Part shown: positions 1,637-34,516 of the stretch, piece by piece
Position numbering within the stretch: the first letter of the stretch is position 1
How the letters are laid out: every line of letters starts with the position of its first letter
NCBI GenBank assembly: GCA_030670795.1
Contig: DAOVAY010000004.1
Location: 1-34,840 of the forward strand
Source: Methanobacteriota archaeon
GTDB taxonomy: Archaea > Thermoplasmatota > Thermoplasmata > SG8-5
Direction: 5' to 3'
Length of the DNA stretch: 34,840 nucleotides
Program-made: the position numbers and the translations under genes
Notes under the pieces: model-generated
Told to the model about the DNA's origin: nothing
Seen by the model: the letters and a program-made list of their open reading frames with translations, nothing else
The model's database searches: none

Positions 1637-2128
1637 TTAACTCACATTGAAGGTGGTTAACCCAAAGTATCCACTTGATGAGCTTAGGACTATTTCATCT
1701 CCGCTAGAAATACTTACAGCAGTCACAATTATTTTTATCCCAGGCCCATATTTTAGGTTGTCGGCACTGAATCCCGAGCCATAGTTCCAGCCATTAGCTT
1801 GAGTGTACCACGCTGCAATTGTGGCGTCGGCGTCGTAAACCGTGGCCTTTGTAATGTGGGTTGGCAAACCATCATGGGATAGGGCTATCACGGTTCCCGT
1901 TACCAATGCATTACCTGGTGCTGTTGATACTAAGATAGTAACGCTTGTCGAGTTCTTACCCGATTGGGATAGACCAAGCGGCAGATCGTCGATAACGGGC
2001 GGAGTCATTCCTATCACCATCACATACAGCACGGCTGCCAGTACCACAGTAATCGCAACCATGAGAATGGTCGCAATAACCGGAGACACACCTTCATTCT
2101 TCTTTCGCATATTCCATGTCTTTTTCAT
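1637..2128 (-). CDS. archaeal type IV pilin-like protein
   Basis: N-terminus MRKKNEGVSPVIATILMVAITVVLAAVLYVMVIGM is the class III signal peptide/pilin hydrophobic segment typical of archaeal pilins. Confidence 0.85.
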   Translation of the reverse strand: MKKTWNMRKKNEGVSPVIATILMVAITVVLAAVLYVMVIGMTPPVIDDLPLGLSQSGKNSTSVTILVSTAPGNALVTGTVIALSHDGLPTHITKATVYDADATIAAWYTQANGWNYGSGFSADNLKYGPGIKIIVTAVSISSGDEIVLSSSSGYFGLTTFNVS

Positions 2129-12864: not shown

Positions 12865-13488
12865 ATGGCCAATCTAGTCGAATGGGGCACTGGCATAATA
12901 TTGGGGATAATCGCCGCCCTCAGCTATCCGGGCATTATCTTTCTTATGGCCCTGGAGAGCGCGTGCGTCCCCGTGCCCAGCGAGATAGTCATGCCTTTCG
13001 GCGGGGCACTGGCATCCGGTTATCTGGTACACCTGTATCCCAAACTCGATTTCTGGTTGGTGGGCATGTCCGGGACCATCGGGTGTCTTCTCGGCTCCCT
13101 GGTGGCGTATTATATCGGCTATAAGGTGGGCCGTCCGACGATATTGAAGTATGGCAAGTATATCTTACTATCCGAGAAGCACCTGAAGAAGACCGAGAAG
13201 TTCTTCAAGAGGCGGGGAGAGATGACCGTTTTTGTGTCACGTTTGTTGCCAGTTGTGAGGACTTTTATTTCCTTGCCAGCAGGTATTGCCAAGATGGAAA
13301 TCAAGAAATTCACAGTATACACTTTCCTGGGCTGTTTGCCATGGTGCTATGCTCTTACTTACGTGGGATATTGGTTGGGCCCGCGGTGGAGGAGCGTCAT
13401 GGCCGCCTTCCGCCAATTCGACATAGTCATCATAATTGCTATAATAATTTTTATAATTTGGTACATCTGGTATGTTAGAAAAGAGTGA
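12865..13488 (+). CDS. DedA/SNARE-associated family membrane protein
   Basis: ESACVPVPSEIVMPFGGALAS, GCLLGSLVAYYIGYKVGR, FVSRLLPVVRTFISLPAGIAKM. Confidence 0.93.
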   Translation: MANLVEWGTGIILGIIAALSYPGIIFLMALESACVPVPSEIVMPFGGALASGYLVHLYPKLDFWLVGMSGTIGCLLGSLVAYYIGYKVGRPTILKYGKYILLSEKHLKKTEKFFKRRGEMTVFVSRLLPVVRTFISLPAGIAKMEIKKFTVYTFLGCLPWCYALTYVGYWLGPRWRSVMAAFRQFDIVIIIAIIIFIIWYIWYVRKE

Positions 13489-13568
13489 GGAATCTTTCCT
13501 CAAGTATTATATATTCGAAGATATATGTTACGGATAAGGGCAAGAGTGACTTGCTCAAGGGTGATGAA

Positions 13569-14990
13569 ATGAAAAAGACTATAGGATTGACACTGGCCGC
13601 CCTCATGTTCGGTGCTGTGTTCCTTGGGGCACTGTCGATCAACGTGAGTGCGGATGCTGAGCTTCCGGTTTGGCAGGTCGGCGACGGCTGGTGGTTTGAG
13701 AACACGGTGGACTTCTCAGAACTGCAACAGGAAATAGATGCAGGTATGGCGGAGCTCCCACCGGGATTCAATGCTGACATAACGGTCGGCGGCGGAATCG
13801 GCATTTATTTTGGAGTCGAGGTCGTGGATACCGCTTATGAATATAACGGCTACAACTGCTATAAGGTCGACTTCACCGGAGCCGTAGGCATAGATTTCGG
13901 GTTGGAAGCCAGCGTGAACGGTGAAATAACCGAGGAACTCTTGAGCCTTGAGATTGATGCAACCGGGCAGCTGGTCATCGTGGGTGAAGCTAACTTGGTT
14001 GGCAGCCTCTACTTCACGGTAGATGAACTGGCATTGGCAGGAGGAGATTTTACCCTAACGGTCGAGGCCACGGGAGACCTTCTGGTTGACGCTTACATTA
14101 ACATATTTATGGACACGTCTGGATTCGGAGGCCAAGTCATTAGCGAGGAGGCAAACATCGACGTAGACGCCTCCGTGGCTGTCGAGAATGTTTTGATTAC
14201 GGGCTCTCTGGAGCTGGATCCCCCCATAGACTTCCTTGATTTTCCCATTTTTGAAGGTGATGAGTGGGAAGTGCCCGAGCAAGATACGGATTGGATCGCA
14301 TCATTGGTCGGCAGCGGCACAATCACGGTCGACGCTGATGTAACAGGAATTCCCGAGCAACCGCCCATACACGAACACGAAGTAATAGATCTAGGTGTGG
14401 AAATCGGAACTAACACCGAATCGGGCGTTTTCGACAATTTCTATGCAAGAGGGCTGCGTTGTGTTGCCGTCTATGGTGATAACTACATCATTGAAACAGA
14501 CATAGGCAATTTCTTCAACTATTACGACTGGGGAACCAGGCAATACGGAATTGACCCGCTCGACTATGTCGGTGATGTTATACCATCTTCTGCAGGAGTA
14601 CAGTATTCTGCTAGCGAAGGCTTCATCACAGGCGTAACCGTGGATGGCGAGGTCATGACCGAAGCCAGCGACAAAGCCTCTGTGGAGGGAGCTGCTGCCG
14701 ATCCATTAGGAAAGGTTCAGGAGGAAACCGGTGGTCATGGTAGCGTCGGTGAAAGAGGAGGCATATTCACCCTATTATTGATAGGCATAATCGTGATTGT
14801 GCTAGTCTTGGTTCTTGTGGCCGTGATAGCTGGCAGGCGCAAGAAGCAGGGACCGGAGGAAATGTACGGTGCCCAGCAACCACAACAGACGGCCTATCAA
14901 CAGCCCCCGCCTCCGCCACCTCCAGAACAAGAAACAGTGGTTCAGGATGACCAGACGTTGGTCGAAGATGATCAAACGCTGGTCGAATAG
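13569..14990 (+). CDS. secreted, C-terminally membrane-anchored hypothetical protein with Pro/Gln-rich cytoplasmic tail
   Basis: Signal peptide MKKTIGLTLAALMFGAVFLGALSINVSA, beta-rich ectodomain, TM (IFTLLLIGIIVIVLVLVLVAVIAGRRKK), tail PQQTAYQQPPPPPPPEQETVVQDDQTLVEDDQTLVE. The listed ORF begins at 13485, but the signal peptide starts at 13569. Confidence 0.75.
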   Translation: MKKTIGLTLAALMFGAVFLGALSINVSADAELPVWQVGDGWWFENTVDFSELQQEIDAGMAELPPGFNADITVGGGIGIYFGVEVVDTAYEYNGYNCYKVDFTGAVGIDFGLEASVNGEITEELLSLEIDATGQLVIVGEANLVGSLYFTVDELALAGGDFTLTVEATGDLLVDAYINIFMDTSGFGGQVISEEANIDVDASVAVENVLITGSLELDPPIDFLDFPIFEGDEWEVPEQDTDWIASLVGSGTITVDADVTGIPEQPPIHEHEVIDLGVEIGTNTESGVFDNFYARGLRCVAVYGDNYIIETDIGNFFNYYDWGTRQYGIDPLDYVGDVIPSSAGVQYSASEGFITGVTVDGEVMTEASDKASVEGAAADPLGKVQEETGGHGSVGERGGIFTLLLIGIIVIVLVLVLVAVIAGRRKKQGPEEMYGAQQPQQTAYQQPPPPPPPEQETVVQDDQTLVEDDQTLVE

Positions 14991-19606: not shown

Positions 19607-22600
19607 CTATTCCTCTTTTTTATTTCTTAAACTGACTAAACCGACCAGAATAATTCCGAAGGCGGCCAGAGAGACCTGAGGTAATTCGGGGATGATAACC
19701 ACCGTAGTTCTGACTCTGTCCCATTTCATTCCGCGCCAAAAGCCCCCATCTGTATAATCAACCTGAGCATAGTTTTCAAGTATATCTCCATCCATAACAT
19801 TATCGTCAACGATAACAGTTATTACGATTACCCCCCCCTCATCTGGATCTAGTGTTCCGATGTCCCATTGATTATTGCCCTGTGTCGGGGAGGGTAAGGC
19901 CCCGACGAATGTCACGCCAGCAGGATATGTTTCTGTTATTACGACATCGTAAGCAGTGGATTTCGAACAAGCATATCTGATGGTGTACGTTAGTATGTCT
20001 CCTGGTCCCGCAGTATCTCTATCGACCGTTTTGGAGAAATTGATCTTTGGCTTTGGAGCTCTTGTACCGGTGAGCGACCTTCGTGAGTTAATATCTTCTG
20101 AGTCGAGCGGCTGGTCGGCAATGTCATAGTCTCCTTTCCAATCCTTCAAAGATATGAAGATTGTGAAATTATCATCGGACGTAATCCCCAGAGTGCCGGG
20201 TTCAACCTTCAATTCCATTCTATACCAATCAATAGCTGATGGGACGTCGTCTACCAAGACCCAGGGAATACCCGGCAGAAGGGGATCATACCTGAAAAGT
20301 TCGCTTGATGTAATCTCGTTGCCCTTACCAGTAACGATAATCACGTGGTCGGCACCGATTGCGCCTAACGTAACGGCACCCGTCATGGGATCATCATCTG
20401 AGTCTATGAGCACGTACGCGTGATCTTCACCGGTATTTTCTACATATTTAATCGGACCAATATAGATCGAGACGTTCATCCCGGAGTAGTTCATCGGGAA
20501 ATTTGTCGGTATGGTCGTATTGAGCCACCAATCCGTGCCCCCGCGGTCATAATCTCTCTCATCATCATCGTCAATGGAATTGTTTGGCTCGTCAGTGTCG
20601 TTTACACCGTCATTATCGAAATCCAGCGGCATGAGGTCGTCTACATCTGGCACTCTATCCCTGTCAGAGTCCTCTATTTGTGGAACAGAAGGTCCCGGTC
20701 GTAACTTGATGGTCGGTATGTCAGAACCGCCGAGCATTACCCCGGAAACAGAGAGATAAACGGACAAGGAATCGTCGAGGTCGAACCGCACATCGGCCAA
20801 GTCTATGTTTTTGTTTATCGTAGTATAGTTGTACGTGAGCGATAAGACGTCATTGGCCGCATCTACATTTTCCGTGGTTCCGGACCAGTCTCCGAAGGCG
20901 CCGTCTATTTGGACATCAGATGGGGCACCGATATAATGTTTCAACCGTTCCAGGTTGTTTACGGACGTAACAGCCTCCATCGCACTTGCGTCGGCCATTA
21001 ACATTTCGATTGTGGTTCCATAAGGGGCAACGGTCAGGCCGGAGAACAAGGATAATGTCAGAGGCACACCCACGGGGGCTTCCAGCGGCTCACCCAATAG
21101 AACCGTGAAGTTATGCTGGTCAAGCCAATTAATGGCGCAGTTCAATTCCCCGGTTTGCAAGTCAGGATTGCCGTCTTGGTCTGTGTCGTTGACCAATCTG
21201 ATGTTGCCCAGGTGGTTAAATGTGGCATTGCCGTTGATAGTAAAGTTCATTGCAGTGAGACTACAAACATCACCGTAGCCTTTCATCCGCATCCGTAGTA
21301 ATTCAACATCTTGAGCGCCCGGGGCCAGGATGTCCGCCCCAATCCCATATGTGTTGATGTGCAGGCTTGCAGGCAGGGAGGACATCACAGAATCTGTGGC
21401 GTCCGAATATCCCACAGAGTTCATGGCAATGGCCATAACCTTTGGACGCTCATTTTCCTCAATTATCAGGTGGTTGGGCAACAGGACCCTGACCTCGAGT
21501 TGAGAATCTACGACCGCGCAAGGAGCCGGGCCGCTCTTAACGAAACGGTTCCAGTCATTGCGCTCGCTTGTATCATTGAATGAATATGCGGTAGATGAAT
21601 CAATGTTGTTGTCCCAGCCGTGTATTTCCACCATGATGTCTGCTCCCAGGTTGTTGATGGCATAGCCGGTGTCCGAAGCCGAATCCATGTCCATGAATAT
21701 GAAAATTGAATCGACGCTATTGTTCATGCTGCTGGAGCTGCCGCTTAAGGCGGTGCCTTCGACTCTTAAGAACATGTCAATGCGCTCGCTCCCGCAGACC
21801 AATTTTGTCTCCAAGATGTTGAGGTCTGGATCACTCACCTGGTCTGATGTGCTGTCCTCGAAGGATGTGAATTGGTCCCAGTCTGAGAAGTTGCCGTCGA
21901 TGCTGATGGCATAGGTGGGTTGGGTGAGCATGTTCGCGAACATCGGAACGATGAGGACGAGCCCCACCAGAACAACCATCCAGCTGACCCGGAGGCGCCA
22001 ATCCCTTCTCGCTTTTTCTAGCTGTCGGGCCCTATAGAATCTGCCCCGTCCGTTGATCAATCCCTGCCCGTTGATCATGCCGCCGTTAATCAGACCATTA
22101 ACTCTACCGTTTATCAATCCACCGTTAACGAGGCCGTTTACCTTTCCCCTACCATTAACTCTACCGTTCACCAATCCATTGACCAGGCCATTGACCCTTC
22201 CCCGACCGTTGACCCTGCCGTTCACCATACCGTTAATCTTGCCGGTGCCGTTTATCAAGCCGCGCTGAATAAGTAGCCCGTTCACCCAACCGTTGACCCT
22301 TCCCTGACCATTTGTCAATCCCACTGATATTTGCGGTTGTTTGAGGGAAAGCACAACGCCTTCCGTCTCCTTCTGGAGGCTAGCATAAGAAAGTTTGATG
22401 GATTCGTCAAAGCATCTGATTGCCTCTTCATGACGACCCAGCTTCTCCAAGAGCTCTCCCTTTTCCTGCCACAGTCCCTCATCCTCAGGGTTCTCGGCAA
22501 GTTTCTCATCGATTTCGGCGATTTTTGCTTCGGTATTTTTCCTTATCGCCTCTTCCTCAAGGGAAATCTCTCCATCTTCCTCTAGAGATACAAGTTCTGC

Positions 22601-24178
22601 TAAATCTACCGGTTCCTCTTCAACCCCGACCCCTAATATGTCCAGTATCCTTCTTTTGTACTCTGTTTCTTTGGCGGGGTTAAGTTCGGCCGCCTTGTCC
22701 AGACAAGCAACGGCTTCGTCTTGTCGTTCAAGTTCGACGAGTATGCTTGCCTTCTCTGCCCACAACTCATGGTTTTTCAGGTCAGATTCTAACTTCAAGT
22801 CTATCTCTGCCAGACGCTCTTCTTCGGGTTTATCCGGGAGAGTCAATAGATCAAGTTCTTTCTCTATCTCCTCGTCCGTGAGCCTAACGGTTTCCCACCG
22901 TTTCTTAAAATCCTTGACAATGGACGGGGCATCTTCTTCCTTCTTTTCCCACCTGCTCAGGAAGTCCTTTGAGATGCCCTTTTTTGTCTCCGGCGAAATG
23001 GATTCCTCTACCTCTTTTTTCGGGGGTTCCAGTTTCTCGAGTTCGATCTCTTCAATTTCAGCCTGGATTTCCTTGGAGATTTCCTCCGGTATCTCGGGAA
23101 GTTTGAAGTCATCAACATATACGCCCTCCTCCGGAACATCCTCTTCCTCAAGAGCTGTTCCACAGACACTGCATTTGGTTGCGCTTCCCGATACAAACGC
23201 GCCACAGCTTGGACACATGTACAGCGATTGTTCGAAGTCCTCCGCCGCCTTTTCTACCTCAGGTACTGGTTTCGCCTCCTCTTCGACGTCTTCGCCTTCA
23301 AAGACTATTCCACATTGGGGACAATTATCTGCCGTCTCCGGAATGAAGGCGCCGCAGTTTGGGCAGATAAACAAAGACGTTTGATCTTTATACCAGAAAC
23401 CGTCATCACTCTCGAAATGAAATCCACAAGACGGACACGAATCCATACCAGGCTCAAGGTGTGATTTACAGTTGGGGCACGCTAGTTCCCTCGGTTCCGG
23501 TGAAGGCTCCGCTTCTTCTTCGGCTTCAAAGACCACGCCACAAGTCCGACAGCTGTTTGCATCCTCTGGAATAAAGGCGCCACAGTTTGGACACATGAAA
23601 AGGCCTGTTTCTTCTTTGTACCAGAAACCGTCCTTTTCTTTCATTTCTCTCTCTGGTTTTACTTCTTCCTCGAGTTCTTCATCCTCATCGAATTCGGCGC
23701 CACAGTTCTCACACCTGACGGCATCGGCAGGGATTAGCGCACCACAGCCGGGGCACATGTAGAGCTGGGGGGCTTCTTTATTGTGCCAGTATCCGTCTAC
23801 ATCATCTTCTTTTCCGGGATCTGGCGCATCTCCTTTTTCAATCTCCTCTTCCTCGTCAGAAAAAGCAATACCACAGCTGGGGCAGTTTTTCGAATCCGCA
23901 CCGACCATTGAACCGCACATTGGACACACAAAAAGAGAGGACTCTCTCTCTAATTTCTCCTCTGGGGTTTTTGAAGGTACGACCATGGCGGATACGAAAC
24001 TCAGGATGTCAGATGCCAGCCTTTCATCTATTCCCGGCACCTTTGCCAATTCTTCTGAGTTTGAGTTCGAAACGTCATCAAGAGAACGGTAGCCGGCGGA
24101 ATAAAGGGCCTGTGCCTTTTTTCTCCCAATTTTTGGAATCATTAGAAGTTCAGCGATCTCGTCATCCGTATCTTTCAT
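19607..24178 (-). CDS. giant multidomain membrane protein: HhH, six zinc ribbons, TPR, NG-rich repeat, TM, ectodomain with Ca-binding-like repeats and DUF11-like domain, C-terminal anchor
   Basis: HhH (IPKIGRKKAQALYSAGYRSLDD...VPGIDERLASDIL); six CPxCG...CxxCG ribbons; two TPR-like units; TNGQGRVNGWVNG...INGRGRF repeat; TM WMVVLVGLVLIVPMFANML; DSDRDRVPDVDDLMPLDFDNDGVND; DUF11-like FSKTVDRDTAGPGDILTYTIRY; C-terminal LPQVSLAAFGIILVGLVSLRNKKEE. Confidence 0.85.
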   Translation of the reverse strand: MKDTDDEIAELLMIPKIGRKKAQALYSAGYRSLDDVSNSNSEELAKVPGIDERLASDILSFVSAMVVPSKTPEEKLERESSLFVCPMCGSMVGADSKNCPSCGIAFSDEEEEIEKGDAPDPGKEDDVDGYWHNKEAPQLYMCPGCGALIPADAVRCENCGAEFDEDEELEEEVKPEREMKEKDGFWYKEETGLFMCPNCGAFIPEDANSCRTCGVVFEAEEEAEPSPEPRELACPNCKSHLEPGMDSCPSCGFHFESDDGFWYKDQTSLFICPNCGAFIPETADNCPQCGIVFEGEDVEEEAKPVPEVEKAAEDFEQSLYMCPSCGAFVSGSATKCSVCGTALEEEDVPEEGVYVDDFKLPEIPEEISKEIQAEIEEIELEKLEPPKKEVEESISPETKKGISKDFLSRWEKKEEDAPSIVKDFKKRWETVRLTDEEIEKELDLLTLPDKPEEERLAEIDLKLESDLKNHELWAEKASILVELERQDEAVACLDKAAELNPAKETEYKRRILDILGVGVEEEPVDLAELVSLEEDGEISLEEEAIRKNTEAKIAEIDEKLAENPEDEGLWQEKGELLEKLGRHEEAIRCFDESIKLSYASLQKETEGVVLSLKQPQISVGLTNGQGRVNGWVNGLLIQRGLINGTGKINGMVNGRVNGRGRVNGLVNGLVNGRVNGRGKVNGLVNGGLINGRVNGLINGGMINGQGLINGRGRFYRARQLEKARRDWRLRVSWMVVLVGLVLIVPMFANMLTQPTYAISIDGNFSDWDQFTSFEDSTSDQVSDPDLNILETKLVCGSERIDMFLRVEGTALSGSSSSMNNSVDSIFIFMDMDSASDTGYAINNLGADIMVEIHGWDNNIDSSTAYSFNDTSERNDWNRFVKSGPAPCAVVDSQLEVRVLLPNHLIIEENERPKVMAIAMNSVGYSDATDSVMSSLPASLHINTYGIGADILAPGAQDVELLRMRMKGYGDVCSLTAMNFTINGNATFNHLGNIRLVNDTDQDGNPDLQTGELNCAINWLDQHNFTVLLGEPLEAPVGVPLTLSLFSGLTVAPYGTTIEMLMADASAMEAVTSVNNLERLKHYIGAPSDVQIDGAFGDWSGTTENVDAANDVLSLTYNYTTINKNIDLADVRFDLDDSLSVYLSVSGVMLGGSDIPTIKLRPGPSVPQIEDSDRDRVPDVDDLMPLDFDNDGVNDTDEPNNSIDDDDERDYDRGGTDWWLNTTIPTNFPMNYSGMNVSIYIGPIKYVENTGEDHAYVLIDSDDDPMTGAVTLGAIGADHVIIVTGKGNEITSSELFRYDPLLPGIPWVLVDDVPSAIDWYRMELKVEPGTLGITSDDNFTIFISLKDWKGDYDIADQPLDSEDINSRRSLTGTRAPKPKINFSKTVDRDTAGPGDILTYTIRYACSKSTAYDVVITETYPAGVTFVGALPSPTQGNNQWDIGTLDPDEGGVIVITVIVDDNVMDGDILENYAQVDYTDGGFWRGMKWDRVRTTVVIIPELPQVSLAAFGIILVGLVSLRNKKEE
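22050..22330 (-). repeat. degenerate tandem DNA repeat encoding the (V/I)NG(x)n array
   Basis: Recurring ccgttaac/ccgttgacc/ccgtttatc core, coding VNG/ING units at 4-6 aa spacing. Confidence 0.85.
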
Positions 24179-24281: not shown

Positions 24282-24986
24282 TCACAAGAATGTCATATAA
24301 GGGTTGATGCCGATTTCCATGGTATATTCGCCTCTTTTCGGCCCCAGTTCCAGTATTATTCTCTCTACGCTTTTTTTAACAATCTTGGGTTCCCTTCCCC
24401 CGCCTTCCTTCAATTTTTTCAATAAGAATTCGGTATATCTCTTGGAACGGTTATAGAAATTTTCGGACTTATCAGACAGCAACTTTGTCGGATAATATCT
24501 GATATGACTCCCATCGGATACCGAAGATATCAGTTCCTTGGATACTAGGTATATCATCGTCTTCGATACGGACTGATGGCTCATCTTGGATTTTTCCGAA
24601 AGCTCGCTTTGAGAATTACCCGGATTACCAAAAACTAAAGAAAGTAACACTCTAACAGGGAACTGGTTAAGAGTATAGAAAAGTGTGACATCCTCTGAGG
24701 GAACCAATCCCTCTGGAAAGTAGATTCTTCGCCCTCCAACACGCCGCTCAACAATATAACTGGATTTTATCAATCGCTCTATGTGCCATCCGGCAGTGTT
24801 GGCTTTAATCTCGGTTCTACGGGAAATCTCGGCGATGTTCATACAAGGCGAAAGGGTGAGTTCAGAGAAAATTGCCCTTCGACAACGGTTTGAGAATATG
24901 TCTATGCCCTTTCTATGGACGGTTTTTTCGGGTATGTCCTTCTCCTTCAAAGCGGATTCCAGAGCCTTACCAACGCCCCTACTCAT
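24282..24986 (-). CDS. transcriptional regulator with two winged-helix domains
   Basis: RRAIFSELTLSPCMNIAEISRRTEIKANTAGWHIERLIKSSYIVERRVGGRRIYF and a second wHTH SQSELSEKSKMSHQSVSKTMIYLVSKELISSVSDGSHIRYYP. Confidence 0.82.
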   Translation of the reverse strand: MSRGVGKALESALKEKDIPEKTVHRKGIDIFSNRCRRAIFSELTLSPCMNIAEISRRTEIKANTAGWHIERLIKSSYIVERRVGGRRIYFPEGLVPSEDVTLFYTLNQFPVRVLLSLVFGNPGNSQSELSEKSKMSHQSVSKTMIYLVSKELISSVSDGSHIRYYPTKLLSDKSENFYNRSKRYTEFLLKKLKEGGGREPKIVKKSVERIILELGPKRGEYTMEIGINPYMTFL

Positions 24987-24989
24987 GGA

Positions 24990-25865
24990 CTAATCCTCGT
25001 ATTCTGTGATGATTTCTTCTATGATGTCTTCCGGAGACATTTCCATGAAATCCTCGTCCCTGAGCTCCTCCAAGACCTCTAATAGCCTTTGATGGACACT
25101 ACTGGGTATTCGTCCTTTGTTCTCCTCGAGCATTTTCCTAACCTGTGTGGGAACATCTCTTGAGGGCGGAGTTCTGGCTCCGCCGGGGTTGACTACCAGA
25201 CCAAGCCCCTTCATAATGCTGTATTTGTGTTCCATCTTGCTGTGCCGGCTGTTCCGGCACTTGACAATTTTAAGCTTTCTTTGAAGCCCGGATTCCGAAT
25301 CCAGATAGCTCTTGAGATGGATTACGGAGTCTGCCAGATACATGGGGATGACTGTTTCGGTACCGGACAAATCACCGGCGGTTCCATGTTCTTCCAGAGT
25401 GGCAAGCACGGTGCCCACCTTTCTAGTCTCCTTTAACATGAAGCCGATCAACTCTCTCTGTTCATATCGGTCCGTGACCGCCCACATGACCGGCGTGAGC
25501 GGGTCAATAGAAATCCGGGCATTTGCTCCCTTCCAATCGGCAACAAAGGACGGCAATTCCTTCTTTATGAAGGTCGAAAATTCCAAGCCAGACGCATCAA
25601 TGAAAACGAGGTGCTCGTCCTCGATGTAATCGACGATGCTCTTCCACCCCATCTCGACCGCTTCCCTTATTATCTGCTCTTTGTTCTCGTCCAGGCTCAC
25701 AAATATGCCTTCCTGTCCGCTTTCCAAACCTCTTCTTATAAACTGAGTTGCAAAGGTGGTTTTTCCGGCTCCGGAGCATCCAATGACGACGGTAGCCGAG
25801 TTCTCGTTTATCCCTCCGTCCAGCAAGGGATTTAAACCGAATATACCACTCTTGATTTTATTCAC
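24990..25865 (-). CDS. KaiC-like/RAD55 family RecA-fold ATPase
   Basis: IFGLNPLLDGGINENSATVVIGCSGAGKTTFATQFIRRGLESGQEGIFVSLDE; VADWKGANARISIDPLTPV. Confidence 0.87.
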   Translation of the reverse strand: MNKIKSGIFGLNPLLDGGINENSATVVIGCSGAGKTTFATQFIRRGLESGQEGIFVSLDENKEQIIREAVEMGWKSIVDYIEDEHLVFIDASGLEFSTFIKKELPSFVADWKGANARISIDPLTPVMWAVTDRYEQRELIGFMLKETRKVGTVLATLEEHGTAGDLSGTETVIPMYLADSVIHLKSYLDSESGLQRKLKIVKCRNSRHSKMEHKYSIMKGLGLVVNPGGARTPPSRDVPTQVRKMLEENKGRIPSSVHQRLLEVLEELRDEDFMEMSPEDIIEEIITEYED

Positions 25866-33103: not shown

Positions 33104-33274
33104 CGACCGGTTTGGTAATAAACGCGACAGATATAAAGGTGAATGGACTTTTTAAAAGAAAATGAAATGTTTTCTGCTCTGAAACGAACTAAATAATTAT
33201 TGCATAACGAAAAAATATTTATCATAGTTATACCATTACTTCGATTGAGGGAATACACCTTGAAAGGAAGAGAT

Positions 33275-34516
33275 ATGTACGAGGACCTTGAGAAAATCGA
33301 GGCCCGGGGAAAAAGGAAGAAGGAGAAGCAAAAAAAGGAAGGGTTTTCCCTGTTTGGAAAAAAAGAGGGGAAGGAGGAACCAGAACCCACTCCCACAGTA
33401 GAGCCCACTCCGATGCCTGAACCTAAAGAATCTCCGGCTCTCGACATTCATGAAGAATCGTCCGTGCACAAATCCCCGGCTGAACCCACGCCCGCATTTA
33501 CTGAGACGGCAGTCACTTCAGAGGCTGGCGAAAAAATCGTATATTCAGAGCCCGAATCTGTTGAAGAGCAACAACCTGAGGAACCCATGGTGATTACGGA
33601 AATATCGAAATCTCCTGAACAGCCCGAACCCGTGATAGAAAAAGAACCCGTAAGCGTCTTAGAAAGCCAAGAACCCTCTTCACCGCCTGAGCCAGTAGAT
33701 GAAGTTGGAAGCCCGGACACAACAGGATCATCGGAGACGATAGAACTGGTAGAATCTACAGATGATGTTGACCAGCCCGAAGAAGAAAAAGACAGGCCGA
33801 CGTTGCAAGACAGCGAATTTTATAAGAGAGACATATACGCAGCGTTTGATACGATAGAGCAACGGGGCAAGAGCCTGAAAGAACAAAGGTCCGGATTCTT
33901 TAAACAACAAGAACGCCCGGCAAAGGCAGCGCCATCAACACCTCCCGAAGTAGAGGAGCCGGTTCCTGAAGAAGTGGTTGAAGCGCCGGCGGTTACAGAA
34001 CCAATAGTGGAGTCTGTTGAAGAACCGGTTGCGGAAATAACAGTGGAACCCGAACCGCAAGAGGCAACCCAAAGAACGGAAACGGTATCCGCATCATCCG
34101 AAGAAGAAAAAAAAGAGCGAACGTTGCGAGACAGCCAGTTTTATCAGAGAGACATTTATGCGGCGTTAGACAACATAGAGCAACGGGGCAAGAGCCTGAA
34201 AGAACAAAGGTCCGGTTTCTTTAAACAAGACCGCCCGGCAGAGGCAGCGCCGGCGGCAACAAAACCAACAGCGGAGCCGGTTTTTGAATCTAAACCATTA
34301 GCAGGGTCAACTCGAGAGGAAGCGGTTCAAGAAACGATAGCCGAGGCCCGATGGGAGCCGCTTTCCGGGAGAGACCTGAAAAAGGCAGAAGTGGAACTGT
34401 TACAATACAAGAGAAAACTGGACAAGGGTTTCAGATCAGGCAAATTGACAAAAGAGCAGTGTGTGTCCATGGTCAGAAAGAAGGAGATTGACTTGGGCCT
34501 GAAACCGTCTACCTAG
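33275..34516 (+). CDS. acidic, Pro/Glu-rich low-complexity protein with repeated RDIYAAxDxIEQRGKSLKEQRSGFFKQ motif and SHOCT-like C-terminus
   Basis: Two near-identical motifs plus a degenerate N-terminal copy (MYEDLEKIEARGKRKKEKQKKEGFSLFGKK), separated by acidic linkers; C-terminal LLQYKRKLDKGFRSGKLTKEQCVSMVRKKEIDLGLKP. ATG 33275 is preferred over the TTG frame opening at 33200. Confidence 0.75.
   Translation: MYEDLEKIEARGKRKKEKQKKEGFSLFGKKEGKEEPEPTPTVEPTPMPEPKESPALDIHEESSVHKSPAEPTPAFTETAVTSEAGEKIVYSEPESVEEQQPEEPMVITEISKSPEQPEPVIEKEPVSVLESQEPSSPPEPVDEVGSPDTTGSSETIELVESTDDVDQPEEEKDRPTLQDSEFYKRDIYAAFDTIEQRGKSLKEQRSGFFKQQERPAKAAPSTPPEVEEPVPEEVVEAPAVTEPIVESVEEPVAEITVEPEPQEATQRTETVSASSEEEKKERTLRDSQFYQRDIYAALDNIEQRGKSLKEQRSGFFKQDRPAEAAPAATKPTAEPVFESKPLAGSTREEAVQETIAEARWEPLSGRDLKKAEVELLQYKRKLDKGFRSGKLTKEQCVSMVRKKEIDLGLKPST

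Follow-up and report, generated by a model that had tools for sequence, protein, structure and literature searches.

The 1523-residue protein encoded on the minus strand between positions 19607 and 24178 of the window, by which we mean the whole 34,840-nucleotide stretch of DNA analysed here, belongs to a large family of archaeal membrane proteins that has apparently not been described before. Judged from sequence, models and gene order, we lean slightly towards the view that it spans the envelope and serves an archaeal KaiC-hub signalling cassette in the manner of a receptor. Literature searches of partial coverage found no description of the family, and its novelty is provisional. The features of the protein, from its N- to its C-terminus, and the two genes that precede it in the predicted cassette are as follows:

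24990..25865, minus strand: KaiC-like ATPase with a C-terminal extension, first gene of the cassette (PF06745, E 5e-34; conserved neighbour)
24282..24986, minus strand: winged-helix regulator with two wHTH domains, second gene of the cassette (Pfam; conserved neighbour)
19607..24178, minus strand: whole ORF, predicted trans-envelope protein of 1523 residues (ORF calling and homologues)
23984..24163, minus strand: HhH domain, residues 6-65 (HHH_5), predicted cytoplasmic (Pfam)
23162..23926, minus strand: six zinc ribbons, CxxC..CxxC at residues 85-102, 142-159, 196-213, 234-251, 272-289 and 322-339 (Pfam, sequence)
22814..23152, minus strand: Glu/Lys-rich charged linker, residues 343-455 (sequence)
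22388..22768, minus strand: two TPR units, residues 471-502 and 569-597 (Pfam)
22049..22318, minus strand: NG array with 18 NG, residues 621-710, predicted cytoplasmic and juxtamembrane (sequence)
21923..21988, minus strand: predicted transmembrane helix, residues 731-752, after the basic stretch RGRFYRARQLEKARRDWRLR (hydropathy, positive-inside rule)
21377..21910, minus strand: ectodomain 1, modelled CBM9/DOMON-like β-sandwich, residues 757-934 (AlphaFold2, pLDDT 94.3; Foldseek against the PDB)
20945..21376, minus strand: middle all-β domain(s), residues ~935-1078 (AlphaFold2)
20069..20944, minus strand: ectodomain 2, second IDGAFGDW domain, residues ~1079-1370 (sequence, AlphaFold2)
20522..20671, minus strand: Asp-rich DSDRDRVPDVDD... 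insert within ectodomain 2, residues 1170-1219, probable Ca2+ site (sequence, AlphaFold2)
19745..20035, minus strand: DUF11 domain, residues 1382-1478 (Pfam)
19610..19696, minus strand: IPEL-hydrophobic-RNKK tail, residues 1495-1523, probable archaeosortase signal (sequence, relatives)

The ORF is real and begins with an ATG. The first-pass annotation had read from it an order of HhH, six zinc ribbons, a charged region, two TPRs, an NG array, a membrane helix, an ectodomain with an Asp-rich part and a DUF11 domain, and a tail; this order is borne out by Pfam (HHH_5, Zn_ribbon_3, TPR, DUF11) and by inspection of the sequence, and a survey of related genomes recovered the identical succession in full-length orthologues. 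Because such orthologues, present in several genomes of the same family, keep the same order, the possibility that two genes were fused in assembly is excluded.

Within the N-terminal half, HHH_5 matches residues 10-59 (E 5e-13), the first hairpin reading KIG here and GIG or GVG in many relatives, and Zn_ribbon_3 matches six stretches (E 1e-24), the six CxxC..CxxC units together spanning residues 85-339. Some of the about 105 core proteins surveyed have short N-termini without any inner domain. For the non-HhH N-termini of four relatives (L052, L055, L061 and L065) their appearance had suggested DUF835, for which Pfam gave no support. The 1523-residue protein also shows a weak NCBIfam match to TcaA, a protein in which a cytoplasmic zinc ribbon is followed by a membrane helix and then by an extracytoplasmic part. 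The archaeal protein shares this arrangement of TcaA-type zinc-ribbon membrane proteins, but differs in having six ribbons together with an HhH, TPRs and an NG array, and in an unrelated ectodomain.

The ectodomain comprises about 760 residues, and the part common to relatives consists of the membrane helix and a core of about 620 residues. Relatives were collected using an eight-row alignment as the query, as a single protein gave no matches and a 23-row alignment was too diverse. A named collection yielded 182 candidate loci for relatives, of which the best 80 all belong to Thermoplasmatota MAGs; the taxa among the relatives include Methanomassiliicoccales, DHVE2, Aciduliprofundum sp. and Saliniplasma. 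The protein is matched at E<=0.001 in 59 of 61 related genomes, in some through the HhH or TPR alone, and the ectodomain core at E<=1e-10 in 38 of the 61, while a phylum-wide sample yielded 14 positive genomes out of 194, several of them beyond the class. In the genome of the window itself (1.44 Mb, 59% complete) at least five further loci match the NG-TM-ectodomain part, and paralogues number up to dozens per genome, reaching 33 matching stretches in G036. The anatomy described below was surveyed in about 105 distinct core proteins, every one from Thermoplasmatota, including a few near-identical copies from close genomes. Relatives additionally carry surface modules such as DUF11, LTD, FG-GAP and DUF2341. 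Two pairs of contigs from MAGs of different families (G000:C69, with locus L012, and G010:C58; G000:C44 and G010:C32) show identical match coordinates and near-identical scores; they are thus apparently shared between bins, so that the C69 paralogue may be foreign to the organism of the window.

A transmembrane helix immediately precedes the core in all 105 core proteins, and the 20 residues flanking it carry a mean net charge of +4.9 on the N side and -3.3 on the C side, with the N side exceeding the C side in 105 of 105 relatives. Zinc ribbons lie on the N side of the helix in 73 proteins and on the C side in one (L122), whose ORF seems to continue into other coding sequence, and the HhH lies on the N side in 52 proteins and on the C side in none. 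Given the charge rule and the sidedness of the zinc ribbons and the HhH, the prediction that the N-terminal half is inside and the ectodomain outside is well supported, and the trans-envelope topology with a single membrane helix that had been claimed from the window alone is upheld by it. N-glycosylation sequons were dropped as a further test of topology: they number 1678 in the ectodomains against 1016 in shuffles, and 260 against 274 in the inner halves, but relative to a mirrored-motif control both halves were equally enriched.

Between the inner domains and the helix lies the NG array, which is itself a conserved feature of the family: at least five NG occur within the 120 residues before the helix in 91 of 105 core proteins, with the end of the array at a median of 20 residues from the helix. 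Between neighboring xxNG units, 60% of third codon positions are changed as against 22% of first and second positions, all four Gly codons occur, and TRF found only 2.5 diverged copies in the window, the DNA of the array being barely repetitive. These results rule out a DNA microsatellite, and it is therefore the protein motif that has been kept rather than a DNA repeat. The NG-NG spacings in about 105 proteins are mostly even (758 of four residues, 190 of six, 110 of two, 59 of eight and 46 of ten, against 86 odd spacings altogether); when multiples of four are excluded, even spacings outnumber odd ones in 72 proteins and odd outnumber even in 12. NG pairs of the ectodomains show no even-spacing bias. 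The preference for even spacings is a pattern suggesting a two-residue structural register, and one reading of the array is that it adopts an alternating, β-strand-like register. In the window's own genome, matches to a strict period-4 NG pattern are confined to the loci of core proteins. The array is a conserved low-complexity element.

A Pfam search with residues 701-1380 gave no match, nor did a PDB sequence search with the ectodomain alignment. The AlphaFold2 model of residues 757-1380, built from 59 sequences, is almost entirely β (pLDDT 92.5, pTM 0.86). Foldseek with this whole 624-residue ectodomain matched, at low TM only, integrins and tandem immunoglobulin domains, and domain 1 was therefore modelled alone. 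It then recovered the γ subunit of ethylbenzene dehydrogenase (2ivf_C, E 2e-4), CBM9 (7nwn, E 2e-3; 1i82, E 5e-3; both with TMq of about 0.5), glucodextranase and a putative carbohydrate-binding protein, with E-values from 2e-4 to 3e-2 and TMq of 0.4-0.5. In the model domain 1 is a two-sheet β-sandwich of the CBM9/DOMON-like type, with similarity that is moderate only; it resembles the sandwiches of CBM9, the ethylbenzene dehydrogenase γ subunit and DOMON, but has no sequence match to the PDB or Pfam, searches of which likewise showed no sequence similarity to the CBM9 family. Domain 2 repeats the IDGxFxDW start of domain 1 and appears as a second CBM9-like domain. The TSP3-like Asp-rich repeats that had been noted earlier are Asp-rich but do not form a repeat array, as there is a single DSDRDRVPD segment, inserted in the second CBM9-like domain. 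The DUF11-like domain seen in the first pass is a genuine PF01345 domain (residues 1382-1475, E 4e-10, 40.4 bits against a cut-off of 24.6). From fold and composition, we infer that the ectodomain may bind sugars and Ca2+.

The hydrophobic tail of the protein (IIPELPQVSLAAFGIILVGLVSLRNKKEE) ends in RNKKEE, and among the 79 relatives whose ORF includes a stop codon, 69 have a C-terminus of the form PE(F/L/Y/M/I)-hydrophobic-R/K. Archaeosortase (PF09721) is matched above the cut-off in 15 of 15 core-positive genomes that are at least 90% complete, as against one of 21 core-negative ones, and the association between core and archaeosortase holds in family-level counts (p 0.0004). Two of the PF09721 matches read ACSGIYSF..NxxRM, which we take to be the pattern expected for the catalytic Cys and Arg of archaeosortases. 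The genome of the window (59% complete) has no archaeosortase match. In the wider phylum the association is looser, PF09721 occurring also in genomes without the core, as expected if archaeosortase has other substrates. The NCBIfam CTERM models do not match the tail of the window protein, and the best of six relatives' tails reached 22.9 against the TIGR03024 cut-off of 23. Of the C-terminal hydrophobic anchor described in the first-pass annotation, the hydrophobic tail is retained, but in place of a plain anchor the PE(F/L) tails and the distribution of PF09721 indicate that it is probably a sorting signal of the PEF-CTERM kind. The family shares with PEF-CTERM and PGF-CTERM archaeosortase substrates the C-terminal PE(F/L)-TM-basic tail and a co-occurrence with PF09721 in many genomes; it differs in that a large cytoplasmic N-terminal half and a membrane helix replace the signal peptide, and in that the tails are at or under the TIGR03024 cut-off. 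One of the collected loci (L152:1396-2586) encodes a protein resembling archaeosortases, whose C-terminal tail is rich in cysteine and similar to a RING or zinc ribbon (CAICGEMM...CPNCGSEI).

The gene of the 1523-residue protein is the third of a recurrent set, all on the minus strand in the window, that comprises a KaiC-like ATPase, a wHTH protein and the receptor-like gene; the closest solved relative of the ATPase (24990-25865) is KaiC (E 2e-35). The recurrence was counted over 72 core genes whose start is intact and which have 2.5 kb or more of upstream sequence, from loci gathered via the ectodomain and not via KaiC. A KaiC-family gene lies on the same strand within 1.5 kb upstream in 40 of these, 32 of which have the full KaiC-wHTH-core order, and the 32 core genes without an adjacent KaiC include many without the HhH/zinc half. 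Reciprocally, 57 of the 67 KaiC matches in the collected loci are followed by a core gene within 4 kb downstream. All three HhH copies of the window's own genome (in the window and on contigs C87 and C69) have the cassette. It is shared by several families and extends to other classes of the phylum (L184, L187). In counts that are not corrected for phylogeny, a wHTH neighbor accompanies 30 of 40 genes with HhH against two of 32 without (p 2e-9), and a KaiC neighbor accompanies 39 of 56 with a zinc ribbon against one of 16 without (p 6e-6). The KaiC partners of HhH-type proteins have a C-terminal extension of about 57 residues that other KaiCs lack. The KaiC orthologue is present in 29 of 38 core-positive genomes and in only one of 23 core-negative ones, the exception (G001) having the N-terminal half of an orthologue at a contig end; counted by family, the figures are 13 of 16 against 0 of 6 (p 0.001). 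In a search for relatives of the window's own neighboring genes, the wHTH gene recurs beside the ATPase, as do, in near relatives, the metabolic genes PdxS, PssA and PSD.

In four relatives an inactivated KaiC domain stands in place of the HhH, and the KaiC gene directly adjoins the core gene or shares a few bases with it; PF06745 was recovered in these N-terminal halves with E-values of 2e-25 to 3e-27 (three of the four checked). The proteins themselves are giant surface proteins (L089:981-5945, L093:8510-13978, L096:8507-13969 and L137:8090-14251). KaiC-like ATPases are reported as proposed archaeal signalling hubs, with inactivated KaiC domains as hub parts, in PMC5847659. With such hubs (Makarova, Galperin, Koonin 2017, as cited in PMC5847659) the present system shares the KaiC ATPase, the inactivated KaiC fusions of some relatives and the adjacent wHTH; it differs from them, as they are described in that citing source, in that the role of partner falls to a giant trans-envelope protein with one membrane pass, which combines a CBM9-like ectodomain with an HhH/zinc-ribbon inner half. 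In the window the ATPase is present in the same cassette, and the HhH and zinc ribbons occupy the place where some relatives have the inactivated KaiC.

Three further genes of the window deserve mention. The product of 1637-2128 (minus strand) has a type IV pilin/archaellin-like N-terminus (GVSPVIATILMVAITVVLAAVLYV). An acidic Pro/Glu-rich protein (33200-34516, plus strand) contains FYxRDIYAAxDxIEQRGKSLKEQRSGFFKQ twice. A probably secreted protein with weak Pfam matches only (13485-14990, plus strand) has a C-terminal membrane helix; its Pro/Gln-rich tail ends in repeats of DDQTLVE, which may be a phosphothreonine/FHA-type motif.

Several readings of these observations can be compared. A purely structural role, in which a surface layer or coat is anchored inside to a network of protein or nucleic acid and the KaiC and wHTH proteins only regulate its synthesis, would accommodate the DUF11, LTD, FG-GAP and DUF2341 modules of relatives, which are typical of surface proteins or adhesins, as well as the dozens of paralogues in some genomes (33 stretches in G036), the ability of HhH and zinc ribbons to bind nucleic acid or protein, and the members that have short N-termini and no inner domain. 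Taken alone, however, such a scaffold or adhesin leaves unexplained why HhH halves pair with KaiC-wHTH and KaiC-domain halves with an abutting KaiC gene, and we regard it as rather unlikely. Signalling is favored over a passive scaffold because the inner domains co-vary with KaiC and wHTH. The trans-envelope part of the scaffold to cytoplasmic or nucleoid components envisaged in the first-pass annotation stands, but its nucleoid link gains no support from any of the results; the KaiC/wHTH neighbors and the replacement of HhH by KaiC domains in some relatives point instead to signal transduction.

At the base of the archaellum sits ArlH/FlaH, itself a KaiC-like ATPase, and by this precedent the ATPase of the cassette could power or gate the assembly of a surface structure via the membrane protein; a pilin-like gene (1637-2128) does lie 17 kb away in the window. 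This motor or assembly role is nonetheless improbable, as the ATPase of the window is nearest to solved KaiC proteins and the recurrent neighbors, in a search for relatives of the genes flanking it in the window, are wHTH and, in near relatives, the metabolic PdxS, PssA and PSD rather than archaellum or pilus genes. We give equally little credence to an incidental gene order, in which an ordinary surface protein with promiscuous inner fusions happens to lie beside an unrelated conserved KaiC-wHTH pair: HhH, zinc ribbons and TPRs do occur in other proteins of the same genome, but the cassette is found in several families and other classes, and genomes without the core family almost always lack the KaiC orthologue.

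If the protein is a receptor of the KaiC-hub cassette, its ectodomain would engage a glycan, the S-layer or a neighboring surface ligand, while an archaeosortase would recognize the IPE(F/L)-TM-RK tail and thereby hold the ectodomain at the outer face. The ligand or the state of the envelope might then be relayed by way of the membrane helix and the NG array beside it to the HhH/zinc-ribbon/TPR half, which would dock the KaiC-like ATPase or the wHTH factor and so alter transcription. A broader proposal, which we put forward tentatively and hold to be somewhat less likely than not, is that the family constitutes a hitherto unrecognized class of archaeal transmembrane receptors, spread across the phylum, in which a glycan/Ca2+-binding-like ectodomain is coupled to a KaiC-ATPase/wHTH output, the even-register NG array serving for transmission or clustering.

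The family points to archaeosortase processing in Thermoplasmata's parent phylum, Thermoplasmatota. Two-component systems are scarce in Thermoplasmata, with three histidine kinases and four response regulators across the 11 genomes of a table in PMC5847659. The core family, found in 38 of 61 related genomes, often multicopy and linking a surface domain to a KaiC-wHTH cassette, is a testable candidate for the input by which these organisms sense the outside. If this is true, a receptor class with a KaiC/wHTH output would represent a native archaeal counterpart of the membrane-bound sensor systems of bacteria.
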